Source: Acanthornis magna
Lineage: Eukaryota; Chordata; Aves; Passeriformes; Acanthizidae
Length of the DNA: 64,000 bases
NCBI GenBank assembly: GCA_036785705.1
Contig: JAWUZG010001109.1
Span: forward strand, 1-64,000
Direction: 5' to 3'
The notes beneath the pieces are model-generated. The model saw nothing but the letters and a program-made list of their open reading frames with translations, ran no database searches and had not been told where the DNA came from. Positions 16,586 through 50,325 of this stretch are shown piece after piece; position 1 is the first letter of the stretch; the number at the start of each line of letters is the position of its first letter. A program made the position numbers and the translations under genes.

Positions 16586-17632
16586 ATGGGCCAGGCGAAG
16601 AGCTGCTTCGGCTCCAGGTAGGCTCCCCCAGAGCCCAAAGACACACGGCCACGGCTGCAAGCCACAGCAGAAGGGGCCACCCTTCTCATGGCTGCCACTC
16701 TCTGCTCTGCAGGAAGGTTCTCAGCAGCGACGAGGTTGTGTTGAGCTCAGATGTGGCTCTGAGGCACGGCCCAAAGAGGAGTGAGAGGCGCCTTCTCCTC
16801 CTCCAGGATGAGCTGGTGGTCGCCAAGCTGCAGTAAGAGCCTCAGGGCCCAGCCACCTTTGCCCCACCCCTGTCCCTGGGCCAGGCCACAGCCAGCCTGG
16901 CCTAAGCCCCAGCCTTCCAGCCCCTGGGGGCTCCATGCACCGCTGTGTGTGCCGACATTGGCGGGTGGTGGGGGCAAGGAGGGGACACACCAGGGCTCTG
17001 CCCCGGGGCATGCCAGGGAGGCCACATGCCCCTCACTGCTTTCCTCTGCTCTCTGCAGCCGAGGCACCACCCTGCGCCCACGGCTCCGCCTGGCCCTGGA
17101 CCAGCTGTGGGTGCTGAGCGGCGGCGAGGAGGCAGTGCCGCCCAGAGAACAGCAGCAGCAGGAGGGCAGCCATGAGGATGCCACCTCCATCATCCTCATC
17201 TGGCCCAGGGGCTCCTGCATTGCCACCTTTGGGTGAGTCGTGGAGCCACATGCTGTGGCAGGGCAGGAGAGCTTTCCAGCCGTGGGAAGCAGGAGGCCTT
17301 TGGCAGCCTTGCCATGGCCTCTGGCCTCCGTGCAGAGCGGGAGCAGGGAGTGGCCTGTGTCCCCCCCAGTCAGCTTTGGCTTGCCAAAAGGCAAGGGCAA
17401 AAACCACTGCTCTGGCAGCTCACAGGGAGCCAGGGCTTGGGCAGCACCTTTGTGCCATGCCCAGCACAGGGCATGGTCCTGCCCTTGTGTCCCTGGGCAT
17501 TGGGAGGGGCATGCGGGCGCGCGTGTAGACCCCCAGGGTTTTGGGGAACAGCAGGGCCTGACACTGGTTCTCCTCTCTTCCTGCAGCTCCCAGGCGCTGA
17601 AGGAGCAGTGGATGGGCGCACTGCAGGGGTAA

Positions 17633-17667
<35 letters not shown>

Positions 17668-20600
17668 AGGGGATGCTCCCGCAGCAGCCGCACAGTTCCT
17701 CAGCTGGGGAGAGCTGCCCCTGCGGCTGCGGGCAGCTGTCGGGCACAGCTGCCTGACAAGGCACCACAGGCGGCTGTGGGCTCACCCGGCTCTCTGCCTG
17801 TCTCTTTTGCCACTACACAGGAGCCCCGGAGCCCGAGTGAGCTGCCTGCCAAGCATCAAAGCTGTGGCTGCGGAGCTGAATGGCCGCCATGCAGTGAGTG
17901 TCTCTCTGCTGCGGGCTCTGTGCCCGAGCACTTCTCCGTGCGCCCAGCCCCAGAGGCACGGCTCTCACCTTCTTGCATGGCTTCTCTCTTGCGCAGGGGA
18001 GGACATTGAGCAGCAGGAAGCTGGAGCGGCTGCTCGCAGAGCTGGAAAAGGTGAGAAGAGCTGCCTTTCTGCCCACTGTGGCCTCTGGCTGTGCTGGGTG
18101 CCGGGGAGGCGTGGCTGGCACAGTGGCCTCGTGTGCGGGGAAAGGAAGCAAGGCTCCCTGGTGCCACGGGGCGAGCAGAGGCATGGGGAACCAGCGGCAG
18201 CGCCAGCACGTCCTTGCTGCTGCCAGCGGCAGCACTGCTGCTGTGTGGGGCAGAGAGGCCGCAGGGCAGAAGCTGCCAGCCATGTGCCGTGCTCAGGCTG
18301 CTGGGGCTGGGAGCGGCTGTCCGGGGGCCCTCTGTGCTGCAGGACTGCTCTGCAAGCAAACCTCGATTCTTGCAGGCTGATCCCCAGCAAGCGCCTGCCA
18401 CGGCCCCGTCCGACAACGGAGGGCAACTTGGCCGCTGCCCAGGTGAGTTTGGGGAGGAAAGGCCAGCCTCTGCTCTGGCAGTGAGCTGCACTCGCTTGTC
18501 CCCTGAGTGTGGCTGTGCAGGTGTGGCACCCAAGGGGGGACATTCGCTGCTGCCCGCAGCTTGGAGAAAAGCAGGGCCAGGGCTGGGGCAGCTTATCCCA
18601 GCATCACGCCAGCTCTCAGGAGCCTCCGAGCCGCAGCCACACTTGCAGCTGCCAGCTGGGTGTGCCTGGGGTGCCACATGGCTCTGCACAGCACTCTGGA
18701 CAGGCAGGGCAGGGCAGGGCAGGCTGCAACAGCACTGGCCTGGTGGTCTCCAGTGACAAGCTTTGGTTCCATTTTCCTTTGCAGGAGGAGGGAGCAGCAA
18801 TAGTGGTGCCTGCAGCAGGACAAGGAGGAGGTGGCTGCCATGGCCCTTTGCTCTGCGGCGGGGCCCAGCTGGGGCTGCCCGGGCTCCAGGGCAGGAGGGC
18901 TCCCGCTGCAGCAGGGCGCTCTTTGGTCAGCCCCTGGCAGCCATCTGTGCAGAGGATGGCACTGTGCTGCCCCGGCCCATCCAGGTAAGGCAGCCCGCAC
19001 GGGGGCTGCCCATCCCTGTGTCCGGCTGCTGTGCAGCCAATGTCCCCATGCACAGCCCCCAGCCATGGGCCACAGGGCTCTTCAGCCATGGCTCAGCCTT
19101 CTGCTGCCAGCCCCTTGATGGCAGGAGGCAGGGAGCCCAGGCCGGGGAGGAGCTCTGGCCCTGGCCACTGCTCTTGAACCAGCCCAGCTCCTCACACACG
19201 TCCCTGCCCTCCTGCCTCTCCTGCAGGAGCTGCTGGCTGTCCTGCGCCAGCAAGGGCCCACAACAGAAGGCATCTTCCGCAAAGCGGAGAGCGCCACGGC
19301 AGTTCAGGAGCTGCGGCAGGCCCTGGACCGTGGCCTGCCCGTCGACATGGCAAGCCAGCCGGTTCTGCTGCTGGCCGTCGTCCTAAAGGTGAGCCCTCCT
19401 GCCCTGCAGCTGCAAAGGCTCCTGCCTGGGCTGCCATGGGCTCCAAGGCTCACCAGCAGCCCTTGGCATTGCAGGACTTCCTGAGAAGCATCCCCTCCAA
19501 GCTCCTCGTCACAGACCTTTATGAGGACTGGATGGCAGCGATGCAGATGGCCAGCAGGGAGGACAAGATCTCTATGCTGAAAGTGTAAGCTTTAGTGAGC
19601 AGCAATTACAGCTCAGCAGCAGGCATTGCTCCAAAGCTGGCATTTGCTGGGAAGGGGGTGGTCTCCTTCAAAGGCTGTGTTTTTGGGCACCTCACTCTTG
19701 GCGCCTGGCATTCCCATTTTGGGGCAATGCACAGCGATCCTTCCCTTGCGTGGGCTAGGGGCAAATCAGCAGCTGGGAAGCAACGCTGCATTTCCTTCCT
19801 GCAGGAGCGTGGGAGCCCAACCGCTGGCTGAGAGTGCCGGCAGAGCTGTGCAGCACAGCCACTGGCTGCACCCCTGCCTGGGGCAGGCTCTGGGGACAGC
19901 TGTGGGCAACATGGCCCTGCTGATGAACATTGCCTTCCTCTTCCCTCAGGGTGGCCAAGAAGTTGCCTGCAGCCAACCTGCTCCTCCTCAAGCAGCTGCT
20001 GGCACTGCTGCAAGACATCGACCAGCACACATCCAGCAGCCGAATGAGCTGCAGCAACCTGGCCATCTGCCTGGGGCCAAGCCTGCTGAGCCCACCGCGA
20101 GAGGAGCAGCTGAACTTGGAAGCCATGATGGCCGAGAATGACAAGGTAATGCTGTCCCCAGCAGCCAGCTGCAGCCTGGCCGGCCCACGGCAGCTTGGCT
20201 GCCCAGAGGTGCCTGTGCCTGGCAGCGCCTCTCTGCAGCCAAGGCTGGAGCAAGAGCTGCCTGCAAGAGCTGCCCCTGCAAGAGGCAGCGCCTTGTGTGC
20301 AGAGGCAAGGCTCAGCAGTGATGGCAGGTGCTGCTTGGCACGCTGTCAGGCCCCAGGGCTGAGAGCAAGGCTTTCCTGTGTGCAGGTGAAGGTGCTGGTG
20401 GAGTTTATGATCTTGAATATGGAGGAGATCTTCTGGGAGGAGACTGCTGGCCAGGAAGAGTCACCTGCACCCACAGAGATATGCACAGGTAGGAGCAGGA
20501 AGGGAGGCTTGTCCCAGCCTGGCACTAGGGTTCCCCGCAATCTCTGCATCCAGCAGACAAGAGGCACAGGGCTCGCTTGTGGCTTTTGCTCTGTGTGCTC

Positions 20601-21816
20601 TTGTCTTCCAAGACATTGCTTGGCTGCATTTCGGTGCTTTTTCGTTCTAGAGCTACTCCAGGAGGAGCAAAGTGGCCCTGCAAGGCAAGCAGATGAGGAG
20701 CCCCAGGCACAAAGCTGTTCCCATGAATCGCCATCGCTGCCAGACAGCAAACACGAAGAGAGTGCAGAGGCCACGCTGCTGGAGGCCCAAAAGGCAGAGG
20801 TATGTCAGTGACAGAAACACGGGCACAACACATCCTGGAAAAGCACAAATTGTGTCACCCACCTCTTGATATTTTGCCTTCCTTCTTTCCTGCCTGCCTG
20901 CCTACCTGCCTGCCTGTGTGCCTCTGCACTGACAGTTTGCTTCTGCAGTACTTTAGGCACGTGCCTCCTCAGTGAACAAGATACTTGTAAATGAAAGCAC
21001 AGGGGGTCATGGCCAACTTGAGGGGGCTTGTGCTCAGATGCCAGCTCATGCCAGCTGCCTCCAGTCTCCTTGGGGGCAGCTGTACCATGCGAGTGGGGGC
21101 TGATGCAAAGCAGCATCTGTTCTGTGCAGCTAAGGGAGTGATTTGCAGCTGATACCTTCCTGTTCCAGGCTGTCTCTTGCCACTGCTCACCTCCACAATT
21201 TCTGCTTTAGGCACCTCCAGATTTGCCTCCAAACACCTGTGAGTCCTCCACAGAGTCCCTGGCAAAGGCTGAAGCCCTGACGAGCCCTTCTGAATCAAGC
21301 AGGTAAAAGCAGCTCACAGATGCTCCAAGAAGAAGAGACTTAGCTTGTGACTCCTGGCTATGCCTTGCTAATCCAACCATGCATGGAAAGGCTTGCAGGC
21401 TACCCCCAGGCAGAGGAAAAGAGACAAAAATGAAAGCAAGTTGAGGCCCGGGCAGGAGACGGGGACTACGAGCCAGTGAGGAAGAGGCAGAGGAGAGGCA
21501 GCAGCAGATACAGACAATGGAGGAGGCTGCAGCAGCTCAAGAAGCTCAGGTATGGATGTGCCAGGCTCTGCTGCCTGCCTTTCCCTCCACACTGCCCCAA
21601 GTCAGCCCAATGCGCTGGCAAGGGCCCACGAGGGCTGCTGCTGGTCAGGGCTTGGCAAGAGCTCCATGGCAGCTCTGCAGGTGCTCTGCAGCCCTTGGCT
21701 TCCTCCATGGCCATGTGCTTGTACCTCTGCAGGAGGAGTGCTGTGCGTGGAGCGAAGCTGCTGAGGGAGAGGCTGTGAAGATGGGGCAGCCGGAGTGCCT
21801 CTCCCTCAAATTCTAG
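16586..21816 (+). CDS. RhoGAP gene A (ARHGAP20/TAGAP-like), 16 exons, 583 aa
   Basis: Exons: 16586-16617, 16713-16832, 17059-17232, 17587-17628, 17821-17893, 17997-18050, 18376-18442, 18785-18984, 19227-19388, 19475-19584, 19950-20145, 20386-20488, 20651-20799, 21211-21302, 21456-21549 and 21733-21816. The sum is 1,752 bp and all phases fit. Residues 11-123 form a PH domain ending in LKEQWMGALQ with the conserved Trp. Residues 240-440 form a RhoGAP domain starting at ALFGQPLAAICAEDGTVLPR. The arginine finger lies in TEGIFRKA (R272), followed by VVLKDFLRSIPSKLL and SNLAICLGPSLLSP (N381). The expected role is to stimulate GTP hydrolysis on Rho-family GTPases. Exons 13-16 encode an acidic Gln/Glu-rich tail. 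The exon 15 acceptor at 21455 was chosen because it alone gives an open frame; it needs RNA support. No AATAAA follows the stop before the next cassette. Confidence 0.85.
17633..17668. repeat. (GCT)n in RhoGAP A intron 4
   Basis: About twelve GCT units begin immediately after GTAA of the 5' splice site at 17629. Gene B has a longer tract at the same place. Confidence 0.9.
20146..20385 (+). other. Exitron-like intron 11 of RhoGAP A (240 bp, stop-free)
   Basis: The intron has GTAATG and GTGTGCAG ends but is exactly 240 bp and open in the frame of exon 11. Reading runs unbroken from exon 11 into exon 12. The same length and openness occur in the other seven copies: 22218-22457, 25352-25591, 28478-28717, 30581-30820, 46384-46623, 48417-48656 and 50522-50761. 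Confidence 0.75.
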
Positions 21817-22021
21817 ATCCAGTTACTTATAGTTGCATTTTTGAGATCAGCTTTTCATTCTGGACGCATTTATTTCAAAAGATTGAGCTCCATGGATATT
21901 AAGGTAGGTCTTTGTCTATTTAGAGAGGGAGATGCTGCTTTTTGCCATCTTTCCACACTGTGCTGCACACTCTGTGGGCAACATGGCCCTGCTGATGACC
22001 ATTGTCTTCCTGTTCCCTCAG

Positions 22022-24948
22022 GGTGGCCATGAAGTTGCCTGCAGCCAACCTGCTCCTCCTCAAGCAGCTGCTGGCACTGCTGCAAGACATCGGCCAGCAC
22101 ACATCCAGCAGCCGAATGAGCTGCAGCAACCTGGCCATCTGCCTGGGGCCAAGCCTGCTGAGCCCACCGCGAGAGGAGCAGCTGCACTTGGAGGCCATGC
22201 TGGCCGAGAATGACAAGGTAATGCTGTCCTCAGCAGCCGGCTGCAGCCTGGCCAGCCCACGGCAGCTTGGCTGCCCAGAGGTGCCTGTGCCTGGCAGTGC
22301 CTCTCTGCAGCCAAGGCTGGTGCAGGAGCTGCCTGCAAGAGCTGCCCCTGCAAGAGGCAGTGCCTTGTGTGCAGAGGCAAGGCTCAGCAGTGATGGCAGG
22401 TGCTGCTTGGCACGCTGTCAGGCCCCAGGGCTGAGAGCAAGGCATTCCTGTGTGCAGGTGAAGGTGCTGGTGGATTACATGATGCTGAATTTGGAGGAGA
22501 TCTTCTGGGAGGAGACTGCTGGCTGGGAAGAGTCACCTGCACCCCCAGAGATATGCACAGGTAGGAGCAGGAAGGGAGGCTTGTCCCAGCCCTGCAATGG
22601 AAGTCCCAGCAATCTCTGCATCCAGCAGACAAGTGGCATAGGGCTTCCCTGTGAGTTTAGCTTTCTTTGTTCTTGTCTTCCGAGACATTGCTTGGCTGCA
22701 CGTGCTTTTGCTTTCTAGAGCTGCGCCAGGAAAAGCAAAGTGGCCCTGCAAGCCAAGACAGTGAGGAGCCCCAGGCACAGAGCTGTCCCTGTGCACTCAC
22801 CTGGCTGCCAGATACGCAACAAGAAGAAGACGGCACAGAGCCCACGCTGCTGCAGGCCCAAAAGGCAGAGGTATGTCACCTGCACACACCTGGGCACAAT
22901 GCGTCCTGGACAGGCGGGGACTTCCTCTTGAGTCCAGGGGAGCTGTTGTGCCTCCTGCTGACAGCCCATCTCTGGAGCCTTTCGCATTCCTTGCTTCCTT
23001 CCTTCCTGCTTGCTTTCTTCCTTCCTTCCTGCCTGTCTGCCCCTGCATTGACACATGCAAGTGCAAACTGCTCAGGTTGCTTCTGCAATGCTTTAGGCAG
23101 GAGCCTCAAGATTGGAAAAAAGACTTGCAAATGAAAGCAGCAGCGGCGAGCATAGTCAGTTTGAGGGAGCTTGTGCTCAGGTGCCAGCTCATGCCAGCTG
23201 CCTCCAGTCTCCTTGGGGGCAGCTATACCGTGCAAGTGAGAGGGAGCTGATGCAAAGCAATGTGTTTCTGTGCAGCTAAGGGGTCTATTTGGCAATTGTT
23301 GCTTATTCCTCCAGGCTGTCTCTTGCCACCTCTCACCTCCACAATTTCTGCTTTTGCCATCTCCGGATTTGCCTCCAAGCACCCGCAATTCCTCCACAGA
23401 GTCCCTGGCAAAGGCTGAAGCCCTGACGTGCCCTTCTGAGTCAAGCAGGTAAAATCTGCTCACAGATGCTCCAAGAAGAAGAGACTTAGCTCTTGGCTCC
23501 TGCCTTTCCCTAGCTAATCCAACTTTGCATGTAACAGCTTGCAGGGTACCCCCAGGCAGAAGAGAAGGGAAGGAAATGACAGTGAGAAGAGGCCTGGGTA
23601 GGTGACAGGGACTATGAGCCAGCAAGGAAGAACAGGAAGAGTGGCAGCAGAAGACTCAGACAATGCAGCGCCAGGAAGAGCAAAGTGGCCCTGCAAGCCG
23701 AGCAGACGAGCAGCCCCAGGCAAAAAGATGTCCCCATGCATGTCCCTCACTGCCAGACATCTGCCAAGGAGACGGCGCAGAGACCGTGGTGCTGGAGAGC
23801 CCAAAAGGCAGAGGTATGTCAGCTGCACACCCTGGGCACAATGCGTCCCAGACAAGTGGGCACTTTCTCACGAGGCCAAGAAGCTGCTGTGCCTCCTGCT
23901 AACAGCTCATCTCTTCCTTCCTTCCTGCCTTCATGCCTTCATGCCTTCATGCCTTCCTTCCTTCATGCCTTCATGCCTTCATGCCTTCCTTCATGCCTTC
24001 ATGCCTTCATGCCTTCATGCCTTCCCTGCCCCTACACTGACACATGCTACTGCAAACTGGACGGGTTGCTTCTGTAATGCTTTAGGCTTTAGTTCTTCAT
24101 CAGTGGACAAAAGACGGTCATATTAAAGCAGCAGGGGGGTCATGGCCAACTTAAGGGGGCTTGTGCTCAGATGCCAGCTCATGCCAGCTGCCTGCAGTCT
24201 CCCTGAGGGCAGCTGTACTGTGCGACTGAGAGGGTGCTGATGAAAAGCAGTGTCTACTCTGTGCAGCTAAGAGAGTGATTTTGCAATCCATGCCTTACTC
24301 CTCCAGGCTTTCTCTTGCCACCACTCACCTCCACAATTTCTGCTTTAGGCGCGTCCAGATTTGCCTGCAAGCACCTGCAAGTCCTCCACAGTGTTCCTGG
24401 CAAAGGTCAAAGCCCTGACGAGCCCTTCCGAGTCAAGCAGGTAAAAGCAGCTCACATATGCCCCAACAAGAAGAGACTTAGCTCGTGACTCCTGGCTATG
24501 CCTAGCTAATCCAACCATGCATGGAAAGGCTTGCAGGCTACCCCCAGGCAGAGGAAAAGAGAAGGAAAAGAGCAGAAGAAGAGACCTGGGGAAGAAACAG
24601 AGAATACCAGACAGTAAGGAAGAGGTGGAAGAGAGACAAAAGAAGTCTCAGACAATGCAGGACACTGTGGCAGCTCAAGAAGCTCAGGTATGGATGTGCC
24701 AGGCTCTGCTGCCCACCTTTCCCTCTGCACTGCCCCAAGTCAGCCCAAGGCACTGGCAAGGGCCAGCAAGGGTTGCTGCTGTGCATGGCTTGGCGAGAGC
24801 TCCATGGCAGCTCTGCAGGGGCTCTGCAGCCCTTGGCTTCCTACATGGCCATGTGCTTGTACCTCTGCAGGTCGATTGCTGTGCATGGAGCAAAGTAGAT
24901 AAGGGAGAGGCTGTGAAGATGGGGCAGCCGCACTGCCTCTTTCTCTAG
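22022..24948 (+). pseudogene. RhoGAP 3' cassette A2 (exons 11-16, rearranged)
   Basis: Exon 11 is 22022-22217 and exon 12 is 22458-22560, both open and in the same phase as in gene A. Exon 13 is 22719-22870, 3 bp longer and in frame. Exon 14 has lost its acceptor (CTTTAGGC became CTTTTGCC near 23351). A fused exon 15/13 follows, ending at 23813, then a second exon 14 (24349-24440), a longer exon 15 (24537-24687) and exon 16 (24871-24948, stop TAG). No exons 1-10 precede it, so on its own it lacks the PH domain and the arginine finger. It may serve as an alternative 3' end for gene A or be a decaying duplicate. Confidence 0.75.
23913..24025. repeat. CCTTCATG/CTTC tandem repeat in cassette A2
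   Basis: Repeats of CCTTCATG mixed with CTTC lie in the intron after the fused exon. The same intron carries pure CTTC in A3 and CTTC/CTCC in A5. Confidence 0.9.
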
Positions 24949-25155
24949 TTCGAGTCCCAGCTGATAATAGTTAAGGGTTTTGAGATCACCTCTTCATTCT
25001 GGAGGTCTTTCTTACGAAAGTTGGAGGTCCATAGTTATTGAGGTTGGTGTCTTGGTATTTGAGAGGGAGATGCTGCTTTTGCCCTCTTTCCACACTCTGC
25101 TGCATCTGTGGGAAACCTGGTCCTGGTGATGAACATTGCGTTCCTCTTCCCTCAG

Positions 25156-28100
25156 GGTGGCCATGAAGTTGCCTGCAGCCAACCTGCTCCTCCTCAAGCA
25201 GCTGCTGGCACTGCTGCAAGACGTCGGCCAGCACACATCCAGCAGCCGAATGAGCTGCAGCAGCCTGGCCATCTGCCTGGGGCCAAGCCTGCTGAGCCCA
25301 CCGCGAGAGGAGCAGCTGCACTTGGAGGCCATGATGGCCGAGAATGACAAGGTAATGCTGTCCTCAGCAGCCAGCTGCAGCCTGGACGGCCCACGGCAGC
25401 TTGGCTGCCCAGAGGTGCCTGTGCCTGGCAGCGCCTCTCTGCAGCCAAGGCTGGTGCAGGAGCTGCCTGCAAGAGCTGCCCCTGCAAGAGGCAGTGCCTT
25501 GTGTGCAGAGGCAAGGCTCAGCAGTGATGGCAGGTGCTGCTTGGCACGCTGTCAGGCCCCAGGGCTGAGAGCAAGGCTTTCCTGTGTGCAGGTGAAGGTG
25601 CTGGTGGATTACATGATGCTGAACTTGGAGGAGATCTTCTGGGAGGAGACTGCTGGCCAGGAAGAGTCACCTGCACCTTCAGAGATATGCACAGGTAGGA
25701 GCAGTAAGGGAGATTTGTCTCAGCCTGGCACTGGGGGTCCCTGCAATCTCTGCATCTAGCAGACAAGTGGCATAGGGCTTCCCTGTGAGTTTAGCTTTCT
25801 TTGTTCTTGTCGTCCGATGCATCGCTTGGCTGCATTTTGGTGCTTTTGCTTTGCACAGCTATGCCAGAAAGAGCAAAGTGGCCCTGCAAGTAAAGACAAA
25901 GAGGAGCCCCAGGCACAGAGCTGTCCCCGTTCACTCTCCTTGCTGCCTGATAGGCAACGAAAAGGCAGCACAGATCCCATGCTGCTGCAGGCCCAAAAGG
26001 CAGAGGTATGTCAGCTGCACACACCTGGGCACAATGCATTCTGGACAGGTGGGGACTTCCTCTTCAGTCCAAGGGAGCTGTTGTGCCTCCTGCTGACAGC
26101 CCATCTCTGGAGCCTTTCGCATTCCTTGCTTCCTTCCTTCCTGCTTGCTTTCTTCCTTCCTTCCTGCCTGTCTGCCCCTGCATTGACACATGCAAGTGCA
26201 AACTGCTCAGGTTGCTTCTGCAATGCTTTCGGCAGGTGCCTCATGATTGGAAAAAAGACATGCAAATGAAAGCGGCAGTGGCGAGCATAGTCAGTTTGAG
26301 GGAGCTTGTGCTCAGATGCTAGCTCATGCCAGCTGCCTCCAGTCTCCTTGGGGGCAGCTGTACCGTGCAAGTGAGAGGGGGCTGATGCAAAGCAATGTGT
26401 TTCTGAGCAGCTAAGGGGTCTATTTGGCAATTATTACTTAGTCCTCCAGGCTGTCTCTTACCACAACTCACCTCCACAGTATCTCCTCTAGGCACCTCCA
26501 GGTTTGCCTCCAAGCACCTGCAAGTGCTCCACAGAGTCCCTGGCAAGGGCTGAAGCCCTGATGAGCCCTTCTGAGTCAGGCAGGTAAAAGCAGCTCACAG
26601 ATGCTCCAAGAAGAAGAGACTTAGCTCGTGGTTCCTGCCTTTCCCTAGCTAATCCGACTCTAACAGCTTGCAGGGTACCCCCAGGCAGAAGAGAAGGGAA
26701 GGAAACGACAGTGAGAAGAGGCCTGGGTAGGTGATGGGCACTATGAGCCAGCAAGGAAGAAGAGGAGGAGTGGCAGCAGAAGACTCAGACAATGCAGCGC
26801 CAGGAAGAGCAAAGTGGCCCTGCAAGCCGAGCAGACGAGCAGCCCCAGGCAAAAAGATGTCCCCATGCATGTCCCTCACTGCCAGACGTCCGCCAAGAAG
26901 ACGGCGCAGAGACTGTGGTGTTGGAGAGCCCAAAAGGCAGAGGTATGTCAGCTGCACACCCCTGGACACAATGCATCCCAGACAAGTGGGCACTGTCTCA
27001 CGAGGCCAAGAAGCTGCTGTGCCTCCTGCTGACAGCCCATCTCTTGCTTCCCTCCTTCCTTCCTTCCTTCCTTCCTTCCTTCCTTCCTTCCTTCCTTCCT
27101 TCCTTCCTTCCTTCCTTCCTTCCTTCCTTCCTTCCTTCCTTCCTTCCTTCCTTCATTCCTTCCCTGCCCCCACACTGACACATGCTACTGCCAACTGGAC
27201 AGGTTGATTCTGTAATGCTTTAGGCTTTAGTTCTTCATCAGTGGACAAAAGACGGTCATATTAAAGCAGCACAGGGGATCATGGCCAACTTGAGGGGCTT
27301 TGTGCTCAGATGCCAGCTCATGCCAGCTGCCTGCAGTCTCCTTGGGGGCTGCTGTACTGTGTGCATGGGGGCTGATGCAAAGCAGCGTCTGCTCTGTGCA
27401 GCTAAGGGAGTGATTTGCAGCTGATACCTTCCTGTTCCAGGCTGTCTCTTGCCACTGCTCACCTCCACAATTTCTGCTTTAGGCACATCCAGATTTGCCT
27501 CCAAGCACCCACGCTCCTCCACAGAGTCCCTGGCAAAGGCTGAAGCCCTGACAAGCTCTTCCGAGTCAAGCAGGTAAAAGCAGCTCACAGATGCTCCAAG
27601 AAGAAGAGACTTAGCTTGTGACTCCTGGCTATGCCTTGCTAATCCAACCATGCATGGAAAGGCTTGCAGGCTACCCCCAGGCAGAGGAAAAGAGACAAAA
27701 ATGAAAGCAAGTTGAGGCCTGGGCAGGAGACGGGGACTACGAGCCAGCGAGGAAGAGGCAGAGGAGAGGCAGCAGCAGATACAGACAATGGAGGAGGCTG
27801 CAGCAGCTCAAGAAGCTCAGGTATGGATGTGCCAGGCTCTGCTGCCCGCCTTTCCCTCTGCACTGCCCCAAGTCAGCCCAAGGCTCTGGCCAGGGCTGCT
27901 GCTGGTCAGGGCTTGGCAAGAGCTCCATGGCAGCTCTGCAGGGGCTCTGCAGCCCTTGGCTTCCTCCATGGCCATGTGCTTGTACCTCTGCAGGAGGAGT
28001 GCTGTGCGCGGGACGAAGCTGCCGAGGGAGAGGCTGTGAAGATGGGACAGCCGGAGTGCCTCTCCCTCCAGTTCTGTTTCCAGATGTTTATAGTTATAAT

Positions 28101-28161
28101 TTGTGAGAAAAAGATTTCATTCTGGAGGCCTTTCTTTCCAAAGTTGGAGGTCCATGGATAT
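25156..28161 (+). pseudogene. RhoGAP 3' cassette A3, with lost exon 16 stop codon
   Basis: Exon 11 (25156-25351) and exon 12 (25592-25694) are intact. The exon 13 acceptor changed from GCAGAG to GCACAG at about 25858, which shifts the splice by 2 bp and breaks the frame. Exon 14 is 26492-26583. A fused exon 15/13 ends near 26942. A second exon 14 (27483-27573) is 91 bp instead of 92, a frameshift. Exon 15 is 27727-27820. Exon 16 starts at 27994, but TTCTAG has become TTCTGT, so the frame runs on through the spacer into cassette A4. Confidence 0.75.
27051..27165. repeat. (CTTC)n microsatellite in cassette A3
   Basis: More than 100 bp of nearly pure CTTC. The minus-strand KEGRKEGR-type ORFs here are repeat products. 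Confidence 0.95.
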
Positions 28162-28281
28162 CGAGATAGGTCTATTGCTATTTGCAGAGGGAGGTGCTAC
28201 TTTTTCCCCTTTTTCCCCCACTGTGCTGCGCATGTGGGCAACATGGCCCTGCTGATGACCATTGTCTTCCTCTTCCCTCAG

Positions 28282-30270
28282 GGCAGCCAAGAAGTTGCCT
28301 GCAGCCAACCTGCTCCTCCTCAAGCAGCTGCTGGCACTGCTGCAAGACATCGACCAGCACACATCCAGCAGCCGAATGAGCTGCAGCAACCTGGCCATCT
28401 GCCTGGGGCCAAGCCTGCTGAGCCCACCGCGAGAGGAGCAGCTGCACTTGGAGGCCATGATGGCCGAGAATGACAAGGTAATGCTGTCCCCAGCAGCCAG
28501 CTGCAGCCTGGCCGGCCCACGGCAGCTTGGCTGCCCAGAGGTGCCTGTGCCTGGCAGCGCCTCTCTGCAGCCAAGGCTGGTGCAGGAGCTGCCTGCAAGA
28601 GCTGCCCCTGCAAGAGGCAGCGCCTTGTGTGCAGAGGCAAGGCTCAGCAGTGATGGCAGGTGCTGCTTGGCACGCTGTCAGGCCCCAGCGCTGAGAGCAA
28701 GGCTTCCCTGTGTGCAGGTGAAGGTGCAGGTGGACTTGATGATGCTGAATTTGGATGATATCTTCTGGGAGGAGACTGCTGGCCAGGAAGAGTCACCTGC
28801 ACCCACAGATATACACACAGGTAGGAGCAGGAAGGGAGGCTTGTCCCAGCCTGGCACGGGGTCCCAGAAATCTCCACATCCAGCAGACAAGAGGTGCAGT
28901 GTTCACTTTTGGATTTTTCTTTGTGTATTCTTGTCTTCCAAGACATTGCTTGGCTGCATTTTGGTGCTTTTGCTTTCTAGAGCTGTACCACAGAGACCAA
29001 AGTGGCTCTGCAAGCCAAGACAATGAGGAGCCCCAGGCACAAAGCTCTTCCCATTCATCCCACTCGCTGCCAGATGTCTGCCAAGTAGAAGGCACAGAGC
29101 CCATGCTGCTGCAGGCCCAAAAGGCAGAGGTAGGTCAGCTGCACATACCCAGGCACAAAGAATCCCAGACAGGCGAGCACTTTCTCATGAGGCCAAGGGA
29201 GCTGTTGTGCCTCCTGCTGACAGCCCATCTCTTGAGCCTTTCTCATTCCTTACTTCCTTGCTTGCTTCCTGCCTGCCTTGCAGTCCCTGCACTGACACAT
29301 GCAAGCGCAAACTGCTCAGGTTACTTCTCCAATGCTTTAGGCACGTGGACAAGAGCCTTGCAAATGAAAGTGGGAGGTGGGGAAATGTACACTTGAGGGG
29401 GCTTGTGCTCAGATGCCGGCTCATGCCAGCTGCCTCCAGTCTCCCTGGGGGCAGCTGAACCGTGCGAGTGGGGGCTGATGCAAAGCAGCGTCTGCTCAGT
29501 GCAGCTAAGAGAGTGATTTTGCAGCCAATGCCTTACTTCTCCAGGCTGTTTCTTGCCACCTCTCACCTCCATGATTTCTGCTTTAGGCACCTCCAGATGT
29601 GCCTGCAAGCACCCGCAAGTCCTCCACAGTGTTCCTGGCAAAGGCTGAAGCCCTGACGAGCCCTTCTGAGTCAAGCAGGTAAAAGCAGCTCACATATGCC
29701 CCAACAAGAAGAGACTTAGCGCGTGACTCCTGGCTATGCCTAGCTAATCCAACCATGCATGTAAAGGCCTACAGGTTACGCCCAGGCAGAGGAAAAGAGA
29801 AGGAAAAGACCCCAAGAAGAGGCCTGGTGAAGAGACAGAGAATACCAGACAGTAAGGAAGAGGAGGAAGAGAGACAAAAGAAGTCTCATACAATCAGGAC
29901 ACTGTGGCAGCTCAAGAAGCTCAGGTATGGATGTGCCAGGCTCTGCTGCCCACCTTTCCCTCTGCACTGCCCCAAGTCAGCCCAAGGCGCTGGCATGAGC
30001 CGGCAAGGGCTGCTGCTGTGCAGTGCTTGGCAAGAGCATCGTGGCACTCTGCAGGGCTCTGCAGCCCTTGGCTTCCTACATGGCCATGTGCTTGTGCCTC
30101 TGCAGGAGGAGTGCTGTGCACAGAGCAAAGCGGCCAAGGGAGAGGCTGTGAAGATGGGGCAGCCGCACTGCCTCTCCCTCAAGTTCCAGCTGATTATAGT
30201 TAAAAGTTTTGAGATCACCTCTTCATTCTGGAGGCCTTTCTTACAAAACTTGGAGGTCCAGAGTTACTGA
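28282..30270 (+). pseudogene. RhoGAP 3' cassette A4 (simple exons 11-16)
   Basis: Exons are 28282-28477, 28718-28820, 28981-29129, 29587-29678, 29775-29924 and from 30106. Exons 11-14 are open and phase-compatible with exon 10 of gene A. Exon 15 is the longer form but 150 bp instead of 151, a 1-bp deletion that changes the reading frame of the tail. In the normal exon 16 frame the usual TAG is replaced by CAG, extending the ORF to TGA at 30268-30270. This is the least rearranged of the extra A cassettes. Confidence 0.7.
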
Positions 30271-30384
30271 GGTAGGTGTCTTGGTATTTGAGAGGGAGAT
30301 GTTGCTTTTGCCCTCTTTCCACACTCTGCTGCATCTGTGGGAAACCTGGTCCTGGTGATGAACGTTGCCTTCCTCTTCCCTCAG

Positions 30385-32162
30385 GGCAGCCAAGAAGTTG
30401 CCTGCAGCCAACCTGCTCCTCCTCAAGCAGCTGCTGGCACTGCTGCACGACATCGGCCAGCACACATCCAGCAGCCGAATGAGCTGCAGCAACCTGGCCA
30501 TCTGCCTGGGGCCAAGCCTGCTGAGTCCAGCACAGGAGGAGCAGCTGCACTTGGAGGCCATGATGGCCGAGAATGACAAGGTAATGCTGTCCTCAGTAGC
30601 CGGCTGCAGCCTGGCCAGCCCACGGCAGCTTGGCTGCCCAGAGGTGCCTGTGCCTGGCAGTGCCTCTCTGCAGCCAAGGCTGGTGCAGGAGCTGCCTGCA
30701 AGAGCTACCCCTGCAAGAGGCAGTGCCTTGTGTGCAGAGGCAAGGCTCAGCAGTGATGGCAGGTGCTGCTTGGCACGCTGTCAGGCCCCAGGGCTGAGAG
30801 CAAGGCTTCCCTGTGTGCAGGTGAAGGTGCTGGTGGATTACATGATGCTGAACTTGGAGGACATCTTCTGGGAGGAGACTGCTGGCCAGGAAGAGTCACC
30901 CACACCCACAGAGATATGCACAGGTAGGAGCAGGAAGGGAGGCTTGTCCCAGCCTGGCACTGGTGGTCCCAGCCATCTCCGTATCCAGCAGACAAGTGGC
31001 ATAGGGCTTCCCTGTGAGTTTAGCTTTCTTTGTTCTTGTCTTCCGAGACATTGCTTGGCTGCACATGCTTTTGCTTTGCAGAGCTGCGCCAGGAAAAGCA
31101 AAGTGGCTCTGCAAGCCAAGACAATGAGGAGCCCCAGGCACAGAGCTGTCCCTGTGCACTCACCTGGCTGCCAGATACGCAACAAGAAGAAGATGGCACG
31201 GAGCCCACACTGCTGCAGACCCAAAAGGCAGAGGTATGTCAGCTGCACACACCTGGGCACAATGCGTCCTGGACAGGTGGGGACTTCCTCTTCAGTCCAA
31301 GGGAGCTGTTGTGCCTCCTGCTGACAGCCCATCTCTGGAGCCTTTCACATTCCTTGCTTCCTGCTTGCTTGCTTGCTTCATTCCTTCCTGCCCGCCTGCC
31401 CCTGCATTGACACATGCAAGTGCAAACTGCTCAGGTTGCTTCTGCAATGCTTTAGGCAGGTGCCTCATGATTGGAAAAAGACTTGCAAATGAAAGCAGCA
31501 GCGGCGAGCATAGTCAGTTTGAGGGAGCTTGTGCTCAGGTGCCAGCTCATGCCAGCTGCCTCCAGTCTCCTTGGGGGCAGCTGTACTGTGCGAGTGAGAG
31601 GGAGCTGATGCAAAGCGATGTCTTTTCCGTGCAGCTAAGGGGTCTATTTGGCAATTGTTACTTATTCCTCCGGGCTGTCTCTTGCCACCTCTCACCTCCA
31701 CAATTTCTGCTCTAGGCACCTCCAGATTTGCCTCCAAGCACCTGCAAGTGCTCCACAGAGTCCCTGGCAAAGGCTGAAGCCCTGATGAGCCCTTTTGAGT
31801 CAAGCAGGTAAAAGCAGCTCAGAGATGCTCCAAGAAGAGACTTATCTCATGGCTCCTGCCTTCCCCTAGCTAATCCGACTTTGCATGTAACAGCTTGCAG
31901 GCAGGCAGAAGAGAAGGGAAGGAAACGACAGTGAGAAGAGGCCTGGGTAGGTGACAGGGACTATGAGCCAGCAAGGAAGAAGAGGAGGAGTGGCAGCAGA
32001 AGACTCAGACAATGCAGCGCCAGGAAGAGCAAAGTGGCCCTGCAAGCCGAGCAGACGAGCAGCCCCAGGCAAAAAGATGTCCCCATGCATGTCCCTCACT
32101 GCCAGACATCTGCCAAGAAGACGGCGCAGAGACCGTGGTGCTGGAGAGCCCAAAAGGCAGAG
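30385..32162 (+). pseudogene. RhoGAP 3' cassette A5
   Basis: Exons 11 (30385-30580), 12 (30821-30923), 13 (31082-31233) and 14 (31716-31807) are all open and in phase. A fused exon 15/13 ends at 32162. Instead of a second exon 14/15 there is a CTTC/CTCC repeat, a 47-bp LTR stub and then the terminal exon. Exons 11-13 with their introns form one open frame from exon 11 to about 31324. Confidence 0.7.
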
Positions 32163-32260
32163 GTATGTCAGCTGCACACCCTGGGCACAATGCGTCCCAG
32201 ACAAGTGGGCACTTTCTCACGAGGCCAAGAAGCTGCAATGCCTCCTGCTGACAGCCCATC

Positions 32261-32390
32261 TCTTCCTTCCTTCCTTCCTTCCTTCCTTCCTTCCTTCCTT
32301 CCTTCCTTCCTTCCTTCCTTCCTTCCTCCCTCCCTCCCTCCCTCCCTCCCTCCCTCCCTCCCTCCCTCCCTTCCTCCTTTCCTTCCTTTT
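32261..32390. repeat. (CTTC)n(CTCC)n microsatellite in cassette A5
   Basis: CTTC units turn into CTCC units near 32327. The tract ends exactly at an LTR terminus. Confidence 0.95.
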
Positions 32391-32437
32391 TGTCGTGGGT
32401 TTGACCCTGGCTAAATGCCAGGCACCTACAACATCTG
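32391..32437. mobile_element. 47-bp LTR stub
   Basis: It begins TGTCGTGGGTTTGACCCTGG and matches the LTR start at 57578 for about 47 bp, then the match ends. It is a truncated LTR terminus abutting the microsatellite. Confidence 0.75.
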
Positions 32438-32560
32438 AGGGTGATGGCAGCACTGGGTGGCTAGATGGCCTTGGAGGGTCTGAAGGGACTGGGGGGGCTG
32501 CGGCTGTGGTGGGGCTGAGGGCACACTAGACGTGGCTCAGGATTCCCTTTGCTTTCCAGA

Positions 32561-33179
32561 TCTTCATTTGCTCTCCATTTCCACAAGGGCTGCTTTGTGC
32601 GGGACCAAGCGACCGAGGGAGAGCGTGGGGAAATGGGCCGGCCGGCTTCCCTCTCCATCTTGTCCTACCCATCCATGTATCCAGTTATCTTTCTGCCTGT
32701 AGATTGTTATCTTTCTGTATTCCTCAAGTTCTATTTGTGTATGTATAGAGCTAGATAGCTATTCCAGTATATTTATTGAATTACAGGTTTATGGAAGTTA
32801 AGTGGGTACACTGGTATTTGTATAGATACGTAAAATTTCACTCTGTGTATAGTTATTTTTATACAGATGTCAATATATTTATATACCATAGACTGTTATG
32901 TTCAGACATGTATAAAATCCAATGTACACATTTGTAGATTTGTACATGTTAGTTCCTGCTCTGTGCATATTTAGATGGTTCAAGCAATGTTTGGTTCTCT
33001 ATATACATACTTATACATACATATATGTGCACTATTTTGAAACCTATAATATACTTGATTATGAAATGGATATTTGTGTCTTTCCATATGGTCAGCAGAG
33101 TTGTATCATTCTGTAGCCAGCTTTTACCTAAAATTGATCATTGTACATAAGCAGCGAGTTCATAGCAATCTGTAATAAA
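32561..33179 (+). other. Terminal exon and AT-rich 3' UTR of the RhoGAP A array
   Basis: After TTTCCAG at about 32560, the stretch GTGCGGGACCAAGCGACCGA and following, with GAGGGAGAGC, aligns with RhoGAP exon 16 of the A3 type. The frame continues to a stop at 32756-32758. An AT-rich tail (TATTTATAGATGTGTA-type) follows, with AATAAA at 33174-33179, the first convincing poly(A) signal downstream of gene A. Confidence 0.6.
33174..33179 (+). terminator. Poly(A) signal AATAAA of the RhoGAP A array
   Basis: AATAAA at the end of the AT-rich UTR-like stretch, followed by a T-rich sequence. Confidence 0.65.
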
Positions 33180-33199
33180 CTTTCTTTATTTTTTAAACT

Positions 33200-43856: not shown

Positions 43857-43903
<47 letters not shown>

Positions 43904-46900
43904 AGGGGATGCTCCCGCAGCAGCAGCACAGCTCCTCAGCTGGGGAGAGCTGCCCCTGCGGCTGAGGGCAGCTGTCGGGCACAGCTGCCTGACAAGGCAC
44001 CACAGGCGGCTGTGGGCTCACCCGGCTCTCTGCCTGTCACTTTTGCCACTACACAGGAGCCCCGGAGTCCGAGTGAGCCGCTTGCCGAGCATCAAAGCTG
44101 TGGTCGTGGAGCTGAACGGCTGCTGTGCAGTGAGTGTCTCTCTGCTGTGGGCTCTGTGTCTGAGCACTTCTCCGTGCGCCCAGCCCCAGAGATGCGGCTG
44201 CTCACCTTCTTGCACGGCTTCTCTCTTGCGCAGGGGAGGACATTGAGCGGCTGGAAGCTGGAGCGGCTGCTCACAGAGCTGGAAAAGGTGAGAAGAGCTG
44301 CCTTTCTGCCCACTGTAGCCTCTGGCTGTGCTGGGTGCCGGGGAGGCGTGGCTAGCACAGTGGCCTCGTGTGCGGGGAAGGGAAGCAAGGCTCCCTGGTG
44401 CCACGGGGCGAGCAGAGGCATGGGGAGCCAGCGGCAGCGGCAGCACGTCCTTGCTGCTGCCAGCGGCAGCGCTGCTGCTGTGTGGGGCAGAGAGGCCGCA
44501 GGGCAGAGGCTGCCAGCCGTGTGCCGTGCTCAGGCTGCTGGGGCTGGGGGCGGCTGGCCGGGGGCCCTCTGTGCTGCAGGGCTGCTCTGCAAGCGCACCT
44601 CGATTCTTGCAGGCTGATCCCCAGCAAGCGCCTGCCACGGCCCCATCCGACACCAGAGGACAACTTGGCCACTGCCCAGGTGAGTTTGGGGAGGAAAGGC
44701 CAGCCTCTGCTCTGGCAGTGAGCTGCACTCGCTTGTCCCCTGAGTGTGGCTGTGCAGGTGTGGCACCCACGGGGGGACATCCGCTGCTGCCCACACCTTG
44801 GAGAAAAGCAGGGCCAAGGCTGGGGCAGCTTATCCCAGCACCACACCAGCTCTCAGGAGCCTCCGAGCCGCAGCCGCACTTGCAGGTGCCAGCTGGGTGT
44901 GCCTGGGGTGCCACATGGCTCTGCACAGCGCTCTAGGCAGGCAGGGCAGGGCAGGGCAGGCTGCAACAGCACTGGCCTGGTGGTCTCCAGTGACAAGCTT
45001 TGGTTCCGTTTTCCTTTGCAGCAGGAGGGACCAGCGTTAGTGGTGCCCGCAGCAGGACGAGGAGGAGGTGGCTGCCATGGCCCTTTGCTCTGCGGCGGGG
45101 CCCAGCTGGGGCTGCCCGGGCTCCAGGGCAGGAGGGCTCCGGCTGCAGCAGGGCGCTCTTTGGTCAGCCCCTGGCAGCCATCTGTGCAGAGGATGGCACT
45201 GTGTTGCCCCGGCCCATCCAGGTAAGGCAGCCCACACAGGGGCTGCCCATCCCTGTGTCCGGCTGCTGTGCAGCCAATGTCCCCATGCACGGCCCCCAGC
45301 CATGGGCCACAGGGCTCTTCAGCCGTGGCTCAGCCTTCTGCTGCCAGCCCCTTGATGACAGGAGGCAGGGAGCCCAGGCTGGGGAGGAGCTCTGGCCGTG
45401 GCCACTGCTCTTGGACCAGCCCAGCTCCTCACACACATCCTTGCCCTCCTGCCTCTCCTGCAGGAGCTGCTGGCTGTCCTGCGCCAGCAAGGGCCTGCAA
45501 CAGAAGGCATCTTCCGCAAAGCGGAGAGCACCACGGCAGTTCAGGAGCTGCGGCAGGCCCTGGACCGTGGCCTGCCCGTCGACATGGCAAGCCAGCCGGT
45601 TCTGCTGCTGGCCGTCGTCCTAAAGGTGATCCCTCCCGCCCTGCAGCTGCAAAGGCTCCAGCCTGGGCTGCCATGGGCTCCGAGGCTCACCAGCAGCCCT
45701 TGGCATTGCAGGACTTCCTGAGAAGCATCCCCTCCAAGCTCCTCATCACAGACCTTTATGAGGACTGGATGACAGCGATGCAGATGGCCAGCAGGGAGGA
45801 CAAGATCTCTCAGCTCAAAGTGTAAGCTTTAGTGAGCAGCAGTTACAGCTCTGCAGCAGGCATTGCTCCAAAGCTGGCATTTGCTGGGAAGGGGGTGGTC
45901 TCCTTCAAAGGCTGTGTTTTTGGGCACCTCGCTCTTGGCGCCTGGCATTCCCATTTTGGGGCAATGCACAGCGATCCTTCCCTTGCGTGGGTTCGAGGCA
46001 AATCAGCAGCTGGGAAGTAACGCCGCGCTTCCTTCCTGCAGGAGCGAGGGACCCCCGACCGCTGGCTAAGAGCGCCTGCAGAGCTGTGCAGCACAGCCGC
46101 TGGCTGCACCCCTGCCCGGGGCAAGCTGTGGGGACAGCTGTGGGCAACATGGCCCTGCTGATGAATGTTGTCTTCCTGTTCCCTCAGGGTGGCCAAGAAG
46201 TTGCCAGCCGCCAACCTTCTCCTCCTCAAGCAGCTGCTGGCACTGCTGCAAGACATCGACCAGCACACATCCAGCAGCCGAATGAGCTGCAGCAACCTGG
46301 CCATCTGCCTGGGGCCAAGCCTGCTGAGCCCACCGCAAGAGGAGCAGCTGAACTTGGAAGCCATGATGGCTGAGAATGACAAGGTAATGCTGTCCTCAGC
46401 AGCCGGATGCAGCCTGGCCAGCCCACGGCAGCTTGGCTGCCCAGAGGTGCCTGTGCCTGGCAGTGCCTCTCTGCAGCCAAGGCTGGAGCAGGAGCTGCCT
46501 GCAAGAGCTGCCCCTGCAAGAGGCAGCGCCTTGTGTGCAGAGGCAAGGCTCAGCAGTGATGGCAGGAGCTGCTTGGCACGCTGTCAGGCCCCAGGGCTGA
46601 GAGCAAGGCTTTCCTGTGTGCAGGTGAAGGTGCTGGTGGAGTTTCTGATCTTGAATATGGAGGAGATCTTCTGGGAGGAGACTGCTGGCCAGGAAGAGTC
46701 ACCTGCACCCACAGAGATATGCACAGGTAGGAGCAGGAAGGGAGGCTTGTCCCAGCCCTGCACTGGGGGTCCCTGCAATCTCCACATCCTGCAGTCAAGA
46801 GGCACAGGGCTCGCTTGTGGCTTTTGCTCTGTGTGCTCTTGTCTTCCAAGACATTGCTTGGCTGCATTTTGGTGCTTTTAATTTCTAGAGCTGCGCCAGG

Positions 46901-48019
46901 AGGAGCGAAGTGGCCCTGCAAGGCAGGCAGATGAGGAGCCCCAGGCACAAAGCTGTTGCCATGAATCCCCCTCAGTGCCAGACAGCAAACAAGAAGACAG
47001 CGCAGAGGCCATGCCGCTGGAGGCCCAAAAGGCAGAGGTATTTCAGCGACAGAAACAGAGGCACAACACATCCTAGAAAAGCACAAATTTTGTCACCCAC
47101 CTCTTGAGATTTTGCCTTCCATCTTTCCTGCCTGCCTGCCTGCCTGTGTGCCTCTGCACTGACAGTTTGCTTCTGCAGTGCTTTAGGCACATGCCTCCTC
47201 AGTGGACAAGATACTTGTAAATGAAAGTAGCAGGGGGGTCATGGCCGACTTGAGAGCCCTTGTGCTCCTTGGGGGCAGCTGTACTGTGCGAGTGGGGGCT
47301 GATGCAATGCAGAGTCTGCTCTGTGCAGCTGAGGGAGGGATTTGCAACTGATACCTTACTCTTCCAGGCTGTCTCTTGCCACCACTCACCTCCACAATTT
47401 CTGCTCTAGGCACCTCCAGGTTTGCCTCCAAACACCTGTGAGTCCTCCACAGAGTCCCTGGCAAAGGCTGAAGCCCTGACGAGCCCTTCTGAGTCAAGCA
47501 GGTAAAAGCAGTTCACAGATGCTCCAACAAGAAGAGACTTAGCTCATGACTCCTGGCTATGCCTAGCTAATCTAACCATGCATGTAAAGGCTTGCAGGCT
47601 ACCCCCAGGCAGAGGAAAAGAGACGAAAACGTAAGCAAGTTGAGGCCTGGGCAGGAGACGGGGACTACGAGCCAGCGAGGAAGAGGCAGAGGAGAGGCAG
47701 CAGCGGATACATGCAATGGAGGAGGCTGGGGCAGCTCAAGAAGCTCAGGTATGGATGTGCCAGGCTCTGCTGCCCACCTTTCCCTCCGCACTGCCCCAAG
47801 TCAGCCCAAGGTGCTGGCAAGGGCCCACGAGGGCTGCTGCTGGTCAGGGCTTGGCAAGAACTCCATGGCAGCTCTGCAGGGGCTCTGCAGAGATTCCTTG
47901 GCTTCCTCCATGCCCATGACCTTGTACCTCTGCAGGAGGAGTGCTGTGCGTGGAGCGAAGCTGCTGAGGGAGAGGCTGTGAAGATGGGGCGGCCGGAGTG
48001 CCTCTCCCTCAAATTCTAG
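42813..48019 (+). CDS. RhoGAP gene B (paralogue of gene A), 16 exons, 583 aa
   Basis: Exons: 42813-42844, 42940-43059, 43286-43459, 43811-43852, 44057-44129, 44234-44287, 44613-44679, 45022-45221, 45464-45625, 45712-45821, 46188-46383, 46624-46726, 46889-47037, 47410-47501, 47655-47748 and 47936-48019. Every exon has the same length as in gene A, total 1,752 bp. The PH domain, arginine finger (TEGIFRKA), VVLKDFLRSIPSKLL and SNLAICLGPSLLSP are all kept. Donor sites of exon 3 (GTGCGT) and exon 13 (GTATTT) differ from gene A and are weaker. Exon 5 is the most diverged (VRVSRLPSIKAVVVELNGCC). The 5' flank matches gene A from about 42370. Two further 3' cassettes follow, again without a poly(A) signal in between. 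Confidence 0.85.
43858..43903. repeat. (CTG)n in RhoGAP B intron 4
   Basis: About 15 pure CTG units begin a few bases after the 5' splice site GTAAG at 43853; gene A has about 12 at the same position. Confidence 0.9.
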
Positions 48020-48220
48020 ATCAAATTACATATAGTTGCATTTTTGAGATCAGCTTTTCATTCTGGACGCATTTATTTCAAAAGATTGAGCTCCATGGAT
48101 ATTGAGGTAGGTCTCAATATTTGGAGAGGGAGATGCTGCTTTTCGCCCTCTTTCCACACTCTGCTGCACACTGTGGGCAACATGGCCCTGCTGATGAATG
48201 TCGTCTTCCTCTTCCCTCAG

Positions 48221-50209: not shown

Positions 50210-50325
50210 GGTAAGTGTCTTGGTATTTGAGAGGGAGATGCTGCTTTTTGCCCTCTTTCCACACTCTGGTGCATCTGTGGGACCACCTGGTCCTGGTGAT
50301 GAACGTTGCCTTCCTCTTCCCTCAG

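Follow-up and report, generated by a model that had tools for sequence, protein, structure and literature searches.

The gene discussed here, gene A, lies at positions 16586-33179 of a 64,000-nucleotide stretch of the Acanthornis magna genome (contig JAWUZG010001109.1, positions 1 to 64,000; below, the window). Its exons 1-10 occur once and are followed by five 3' cassettes, A1 to A5, and this cassette architecture is real and unusual. We consider it plausible on the evidence of the DNA, although at somewhat short of an even chance, that exon 10 is spliced to more than one of the five in-frame cassettes, each of which would complete the RhoGAP domain and give an alternative C-terminus; we rank such a choice just ahead of a decaying array in which one cassette is used. 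The parts of gene A are as follows.

16586..19584, + strand: exons 1-10, an open spliced frame with GT/AG borders, carrying RHG20_PH and the first half of RhoGAP
16586-16617, 16713-16832, 17059-17232, 17587-17628 and 17821-17893, + strand: exons 1-5
17997-18050, 18376-18442, 18785-18984, 19227-19388 and 19475-19584, + strand: exons 6-10
19900..21971, + strand: cassette A1, with exon 11 at 19950-20145, exon 12 at 20386-20488, exon 13 at 20651-20799, exon 14 at 21211-21302, exon 15 at 21399-21549 and exon 16 at 21733-21816
20146..20385, + strand: intron 11 of A1, a near-identical 240-bp tract with seven copies at 22218, 25352, 28478, 30581, 46384, 48417 and 50522
21972..25102, + strand: cassette A2, composite, with exon 11 at 22022-22217, exon 12 at 22458-22560, exon 13 at 22719-22870 and a first exon 14 at 23357-23448 (acceptor lost)
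later exons of A2, + strand: fused exon 15/exon 13 at 23545-23813, second exon 14 at 24349-24440, exon 15 at 24537-24687 and exon 16 at 24871-24954
25103..28231, + strand: cassette A3, composite, with exon 11 at 25156-25351, exon 12 at 25592-25694, exon 13 at 25857-26005 and exon 14 at 26492-26583
later exons of A3, + strand: fused exon 15/exon 13 at 26674-26942, second exon 14 at 27483-27573 (91 bp), exon 15 at 27670-27820 and exon 16 at 27994-28077
28232..30331, + strand: cassette A4, intact, with exon 11 at 28282-28477, exon 12 at 28718-28820, exon 13 at 28981-29129, exon 14 at 29587-29678, exon 15 at 29775-29924 and exon 16 at 30106-30189
30332..32321, + strand: cassette A5, truncated, with exon 11 at 30385-30580, exon 12 at 30821-30923, exon 13 at 31082-31233, exon 14 at 31716-31807 and fused exon 15/exon 13 at 31901-32162
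32560..33195, + strand: predicted terminal exon T, a relative of exon 16 with an AT-rich 3' untranslated region and AATAAA at 33174, a prediction based on its resemblance to exon 16 and the end of the Corvus protein model P0123

By its sequence, gene A is a bird TAGAP/ARHGAP20-like RhoGAP gene. The predicted protein matches PF00620 (RhoGAP) in Pfam with 132.4 bits over profile positions 1-147 of 148 and, upstream of it, PF22286 (RHG20_PH) with 61.3 bits over positions 2-92 of 93; from these domains the protein is predicted to act as a GTPase-activating protein on a Rho GTPase. The best match by sequence in the PDB is ARHGAP20 (3msx_B, E 1e-41), followed by P50-RhoGAP (1tx4, 9.4e-22), and the nearest database proteins are bird TAGAP-like and ARHGAP20-like, with 207 at E <=0.001 (7995 candidates were scored and the best 120 are listed). 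Corvus supplies the passerines among the best 120 of the 207 matches listed, and a query made with the 3' half adds Aphelocoma, Hirundo, Zosterops and Pipra.

Evidence for choice comes from the joins. Alone, the 5' half of gene A matches RhoGAP with 76 bits over positions 1-96 of 148, whereas joining exon 10 to exons 11 and 12 of any of the five cassettes raises the Pfam match to 130.5-134.9 bits over positions 1-147. A sequence-only reading of this DNA had held that exons 1-10 occur once, that exon 10 ends at 19584 in phase 2 and that it can enter any exon 11 in frame, and in this it was correct: the copies at 19950, 22022, 25156, 28282 and 30385 are all 196 bp long and share one phase, an AG acceptor and a GTAATG donor. 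The same reading had exons 11-16 occurring five times, which stands for exons 11 and 12 (five copies each) and fails for exons 13-16. Exon 13 has five copies plus three partial ones fused to exon 15, exon 14 has seven, exon 15 has four plus the three fused, and exon 16 has four plus a distant relative near 32596; A5 is truncated, with neither a complete exon 15 nor an exon 16. Self-comparison of the window aligns the A cassettes at 84-92% over 2.6-5.9 kb, far above chance, and the exon 11 copies are spaced 2072, 3134, 3126 and 2103 bp apart. Exon 13 was doubled in A2, A3 and A5 by an exon 15/exon 13 fusion, with junctions near 23668, 26797 and 32017; since the junction is identical in the three cassettes, one event was probably spread by later duplication.

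We built predicted transcripts in which exon 10 is joined to exons 11-12, 11-13 or 11-14 of each cassette and then to the terminal exon at 32560, giving three paths per cassette. In each of the five A cassettes, one or more of the three paths terminates in the last exon. In A3 this holds for the exon 11-12 path only, and the exon 11-14 path of A2 includes the exon with the lost acceptor. A4 has AG/GT at every border and a frame open to the stop in its own exon 16, and it is also open through exon 15 to the terminal exon; A2 is open through its second exon 14, exon 15 and exon 16 despite the loss of the first exon 14 acceptor. Elsewhere, stops and lost splice sites vary from cassette to cassette: exons 11-12 are intact in all five, while the tails of A1, A3 and A5 are broken on at least one path. 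The stop formerly assigned to A1 at 21816 is not reached on the path through exons 13, 14, 15 and 16, because the protein already terminates at an in-frame TGA in exon 15.

All five cassettes fall inside one predicted transcription unit. A scan of the window found no AATAAA on the + strand between 14241 and 33174, nor between 40931 and 54984, which bears out the earlier statement that none lies between 21816 and A2 and that the first convincing signal is at 33174. The weaker ATTAAA occurs at 24122 and 27260, outside exons, and apart from these two the scan found no poly(A) signal after each alternative 3' end. Since there is no AATAAA near A1, the RNA likely runs through all the cassettes.

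The strongest competitor is a decaying tandem duplication, in which one cassette (A1 or one nearer the terminal exon) is used and gene conversion maintains the likeness of the rest, which are relics; we hold it too below an even chance, second to cassette choice. The frames bear on it. In a neutral simulation along the measured tree with four stand-in ancestors, and with exon 13 of A3 read from its old acceptor, the exon 12+13 frame was open in a mean of 2.0-3.4 of eight copies (the five of gene A and three of a second gene, B, described below), whereas it is open in seven of the eight; the probability of at least seven open of eight was 0.0035, 0.011, 0.013 or 0.05, according to the choice of ancestor. 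For A2-A5, where the frame is open in four of four, the corresponding probability was 0.029. The three length changes inside exons 11-13 are all of 3 bp. Across the eight copies, a codon model gave a ratio of non-synonymous to synonymous rates (w) of 0.45 for exons 11+12, with twice the log-likelihood difference (2dlnL) at 11.8 against w=1, and the two exons taken singly agree (exon 11, w 0.42, 2dlnL 6.6; exon 12, w 0.45, 2dlnL 5.6). Open frames beyond neutral expectation, length changes in threes, A4 intact to its own stop and RNA that likely crosses every cassette speak against decay.

Several observations nevertheless weigh against choice, and some of them favour decay. Units are homologous from a point within the final 50 bp of intron 10 to one about 155 bp beyond the stop codon of exon 16, and because the duplicated unit spans just this interval, the common acceptor phase, the absence of further copies of exons 1-10 and the absence of internal AATAAA all follow from its borders. 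Common phase and missing internal poly(A) signals are, on this comparison of the units, an expected by-product of duplication and no proof of design; AATAAA-free lengths of this order are also not rare by chance, with 8.6 AATAAA expected in 64 kb on both strands. The exon 13 acceptor of A3 is displaced by 2 nt, causing a frameshift, the first exon 14 acceptor of A2 is lost, A1 has its stop in exon 15, use of its fused exon introduces a stop in A5, and exon 12 of B2, a cassette of gene B, has an in-frame TAG. Nonsense-mediated decay is predicted for A1 spliced through its own exon 16 (stop 105 nt before the last junction) and for A5 with its fused exon (stop 228 nt before it). Selection on A2-A5 alone is not significant (w 0.70, 2dlnL 0.84), so that these copies by themselves do not reject neutrality, and exons 12-14 taken jointly do not differ from w=1 (w 1.21, 2dlnL 1.3). 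No purifying selection is seen in exon 13 (w 1.44, 2dlnL 2.0, not significant; the pairwise value for exon 12+13 is 0.80) or in exon 14 (w 2.86, 2dlnL 8.1; without B2, w 5.18, 2dlnL 13.6). The likelihood gain for exon 14 is significant, but the exon is just 30 codons long; positive selection on it is therefore a lead and not a result, and diversifying selection on this tail exon is possible. Near-identical exon 11 copies would give near-identical catalytic domains, which leaves the gain from choice unclear, and an unused copy could have its exon 11 kept open through conversion from a single working copy. Intron 10 paired no better than shuffles did, whether with the A1 copy of intron 11 or with the five A tracts preceding exon 11 (nine duplex energies, P 0.06-0.89); this test, which was crude, took whole sequences and might overlook a short site, showed no Dscam-like docking and selector pairing.

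The earlier proposal that one transcription unit chooses between C-terminal halves therefore keeps its footing in the completed RhoGAP, in the open path of every cassette, in A4 and in the frames, and loses its arguments from phase and poly(A) signals.

The near-identity of the joining region stands apart from the rest of the cassette. All eight copies of intron 11 are 240 bp long and free of insertions and deletions; they are 95.8-99.2% identical and have 16 variable sites. Exon 11 is 91.8-98.5% identical among the eight, whereas identity to B3 is down to 70-75% for exon 12 and 66-72% for intron 12. Branches in the intron 11 tree are all short, and that tree conflicts with the tree from exon 12 to intron 13 (no support values). 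The pattern recurs in corvid models: P0084 (C. moneduloides) and P0121 (C. kubaryi) agree with each other in 78/80 residues of translated intron 11 and 63/65 of exon 11 but in only 20/34 of exon 12, while they agree with A1 in 45/80 residues of translated intron 11 and 50-51/65 of exon 11. Under constraint alone, intron 11 would show the same likeness across lineages; gene conversion within each genome therefore accounts better for the pattern, and we infer that it is the likely source of the exon 11/intron 11 likeness.

Intron 11 of A1 has no stop in the exon frame, Corvus P0084 and P0121 read through it at equal length, and P0015 ends at its 3' end. A coding role was set aside: the tract is 240 nt in all copies, but its middle matches the corvids in a different frame, which argues against a conserved peptide. 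A structured or catalogued RNA was likewise discarded, as a scan of the window gave no Rfam match at gathering scores, and the fold z-scores of intron 11 were 0.13 and -0.85.

Gene B repeats the design of gene A, with one 5' half and three cassettes. In the self-comparison, the block from about 16.2 kb recurs near 42.4 kb at 94.6% over 4.9 kb, with tandem units downstream of each. Its parts are the following.

42813-45821, + strand: gene B exons 1-10, with introns 1-9 95.8% identical to those of gene A
46138..52505, + strand: cassettes B1, B2 and B3, with exon 11 at 46188, 48221 and 50326
52806..54989, + strand: B-side exon 16-type exons (about 52806 and about 54325) and AATAAA at 54984

The identity of introns 1-9 rests on 1880/1962 sites, and exons 1-10 of the two genes differ by 0.043 at non-synonymous (dN) and 0.060 at synonymous (dS) sites. 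Each of the three B exon 11 copies is 196 bp long, shares the phase of the A copies and keeps AG/GTAATG intact, and exon 12 is open in seven of eight copies overall, the exception being B2. Exon 15 of B3 is split by an insertion of about 290 bp (about 51819-52105), with an apparent flanking duplication of 8-9 bp noted by eye. Particular cassettes pair across the two genes: A1 and B1 are 99.0% identical in exon 12 and 92.0% in intron 12, and A4 and B2 are 91.9% identical in intron 12 and 94.6% in exon 13, while A1 and A4 are more distant (77.2% in exon 13). In trees without support values, A2, A3 and A5 group as a third type and B3 stands as a fourth. B2 is a mosaic whose exon 12 is nearer to A1 and B1 (91-92%) than to A4 (81%). 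As A1-B1 and A4-B2 match across genes, the array was likely present before the two genes separated.

Based on these observations, we propose the following model. The unit with its borders at the end of intron 10 and about 155 bp downstream of the exon 16 stop was copied in tandem, as the sequence shows, and gene conversion would keep the joining exon of every cassette usable. The nascent RNA would extend through the five cassettes as far as the poly(A) signal at 33174; exon 10 would pair with one of the five near-identical exon 11 acceptors, and splicing would connect the selected cassette to the terminal exon at 32560. All products would have the PH part and the initial half of RhoGAP in common, and would differ in the last RhoGAP helix (exon 12) and most of all in the tail (exons 13-14). 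A fuller version, in which one promoter yields a family of RhoGAP proteins with different C-termini because conversion keeps exon 11 and its intron interchangeable, exon 12 is held in frame by selection and diversity builds up in the tails (exons 13-14), is a tentative suggestion that we think unlikely to hold in every part.

A different fate of the same RNA is that several cassettes enter one mRNA, or are skipped at random, so that transcripts are mostly non-productive. The lack of AATAAA near the exon 16 copies would allow this, a GT donor is kept in every exon 14 and exon 15 copy checked, and the phase 2 end of exon 14 would permit an in-frame join to the following exon 11. A1, however, already stops in exon 15, and of 185 database proteins only P0030 has two exon 11-12 blocks, separated by an exon 9-10 block that resembles read-through from gene to gene. 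We regard serial inclusion as improbable.

These 185 proteins, drawn from a database clustered at 90%, are database annotations; 148 match both halves of gene A, 26 the 3' half only (a count inflated by a query made with the 3' half), 10 the 5' half only and one neither. Repeats occur in seven of them, including P0001 and P0002 of Columba guinea, each of which has five exon 9-10 blocks and no exon 11-12 block. Among the Corvus models, P0029 and P0032 pass from exon 11 to exon 13, and P0044 and P0068 from exon 10 to exon 13, so that annotated splicing in Corvus varies where the proposed choice would be made, a point in favour of choice. Partial-gene repeats and variable models around exons 10-13 thus recur in the annotations of the family, which is no demonstration of choice in the array.

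Five corvid models (P0121, P0123, P0124, P0126 and P0127) start 'MDAAFLFPRGAKKLPAA' at a cassette exon 11, with no exon 10, so that annotation does not in every case join a cassette to a 5' half. Together with the proteins that match the 3' half only, they would suit an arrangement in which the downstream cassettes are separate small genes with starts a short way upstream of exon 11. The ATG nearest to exon 11 on its 5' side is in frame in B1 (46165) and B2 (48198), but it is out of frame in A1-A5 and B3, half a RhoGAP domain is unlikely to fold, and the corvid models are automatic predictions, so we hold this to be very unlikely. False tandem copies from assembly, to which arrays of similar units are prone, deserve the least weight of all, as the units differ by up to 30 percent or more outside exon 11/intron 11 and in length and lesions, and paralogue B has the same design.

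Cassette types shared between species were also entertained, as exon 12 of C. kubaryi P0121 seemed B3-like (21/34 residues, against 14-17 for A1-A5 and B1); the idea was dropped because the exon 12+13 tree did not resolve them (B3 grouped with all corvids, support 40). Corvus P0123 joins exons 11-13 and 15 to segments matching 36787-36960 and 37976-38092 and then to a terminal exon. We rejected these segments as exons 17-18 and 3' end of gene A: the same strand carries an HSF open reading frame at 35279-36583, which makes it more likely that a separate HSF-like gene lies downstream and that P0123 is a read-through model. This reading frame, between genes A and B, encodes an HSF-type DNA-binding domain on the + strand; further exons of the HSF-like gene are likely at about 36789-36988 and about 37974-38093, where they match P0123, so that the whole would span 35279-38093.

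Other features of the window include a protein kinase domain on the - strand at 8526-9074 (Pfam Pkinase, 7e-26), resembling the PIM-like kinases expanded in songbirds. An inverted repeat has arms of 1.35 kb at 1-1346 and 10950-12293, 99.6% identical and 9.6 kb apart. A 186-bp block at 36165-36350, 39854-40039 and 54023-54208, between and beyond genes A and B, has later copies 97.8-98.9% identical to the first.

The architecture has partial parallels. In Drosophila, lola and mod(mdg4) join common 5' exons to one of many 3' ends. Gene A differs from these in having no internal AATAAA, and its copies are close paralogues rather than diverse modules. With the bird TAGAP/ARHGAP20-like family it shares the order of PH and then RhoGAP, although in P0001 and P0002 of Columba guinea the repeated part is exons 9-10, from the opposite half, whereas gene A repeats the 3' half. 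Dscam-type mutually exclusive exon arrays (PMC6071210) are alike in placing interchangeable units in one transcription unit; the units of gene A are multi-exon, show no selector or docking pairing in our search and are known from the DNA. Choice of C-terminus through tandem exons is known in vertebrates according to the consulted sections of PMC9741552, in which C-terminal swaps make up 77/236 tandem duplicated exon substitutions in human and >90% of annotated human tandem-exon events date to bony fish or earlier. Tropomyosin TPM1, in the same sections, has homologous tandem 3' coding exons that give alternative C-termini, as proposed for gene A. Compared with the human events, gene A repeats a unit of up to six exons, with part of a catalytic domain, five times. 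Judged by titles and the starts of abstracts, none of the papers listed in searches of an open-access library for the family in birds deals with the array in question.

If the choice of cassettes is true, what would be new here is the use of multi-exon units, a shared catalytic half and near-identity limited to the joining exon and its intron. The array would then let such a system be watched under construction, in terms of which copies are used and where exclusivity comes from, and would show how gene conversion holds a joining part constant and apart from tails that diverge. Whatever its splicing proves to be, the locus is a clean candidate for concerted evolution limited to one exon-intron block.

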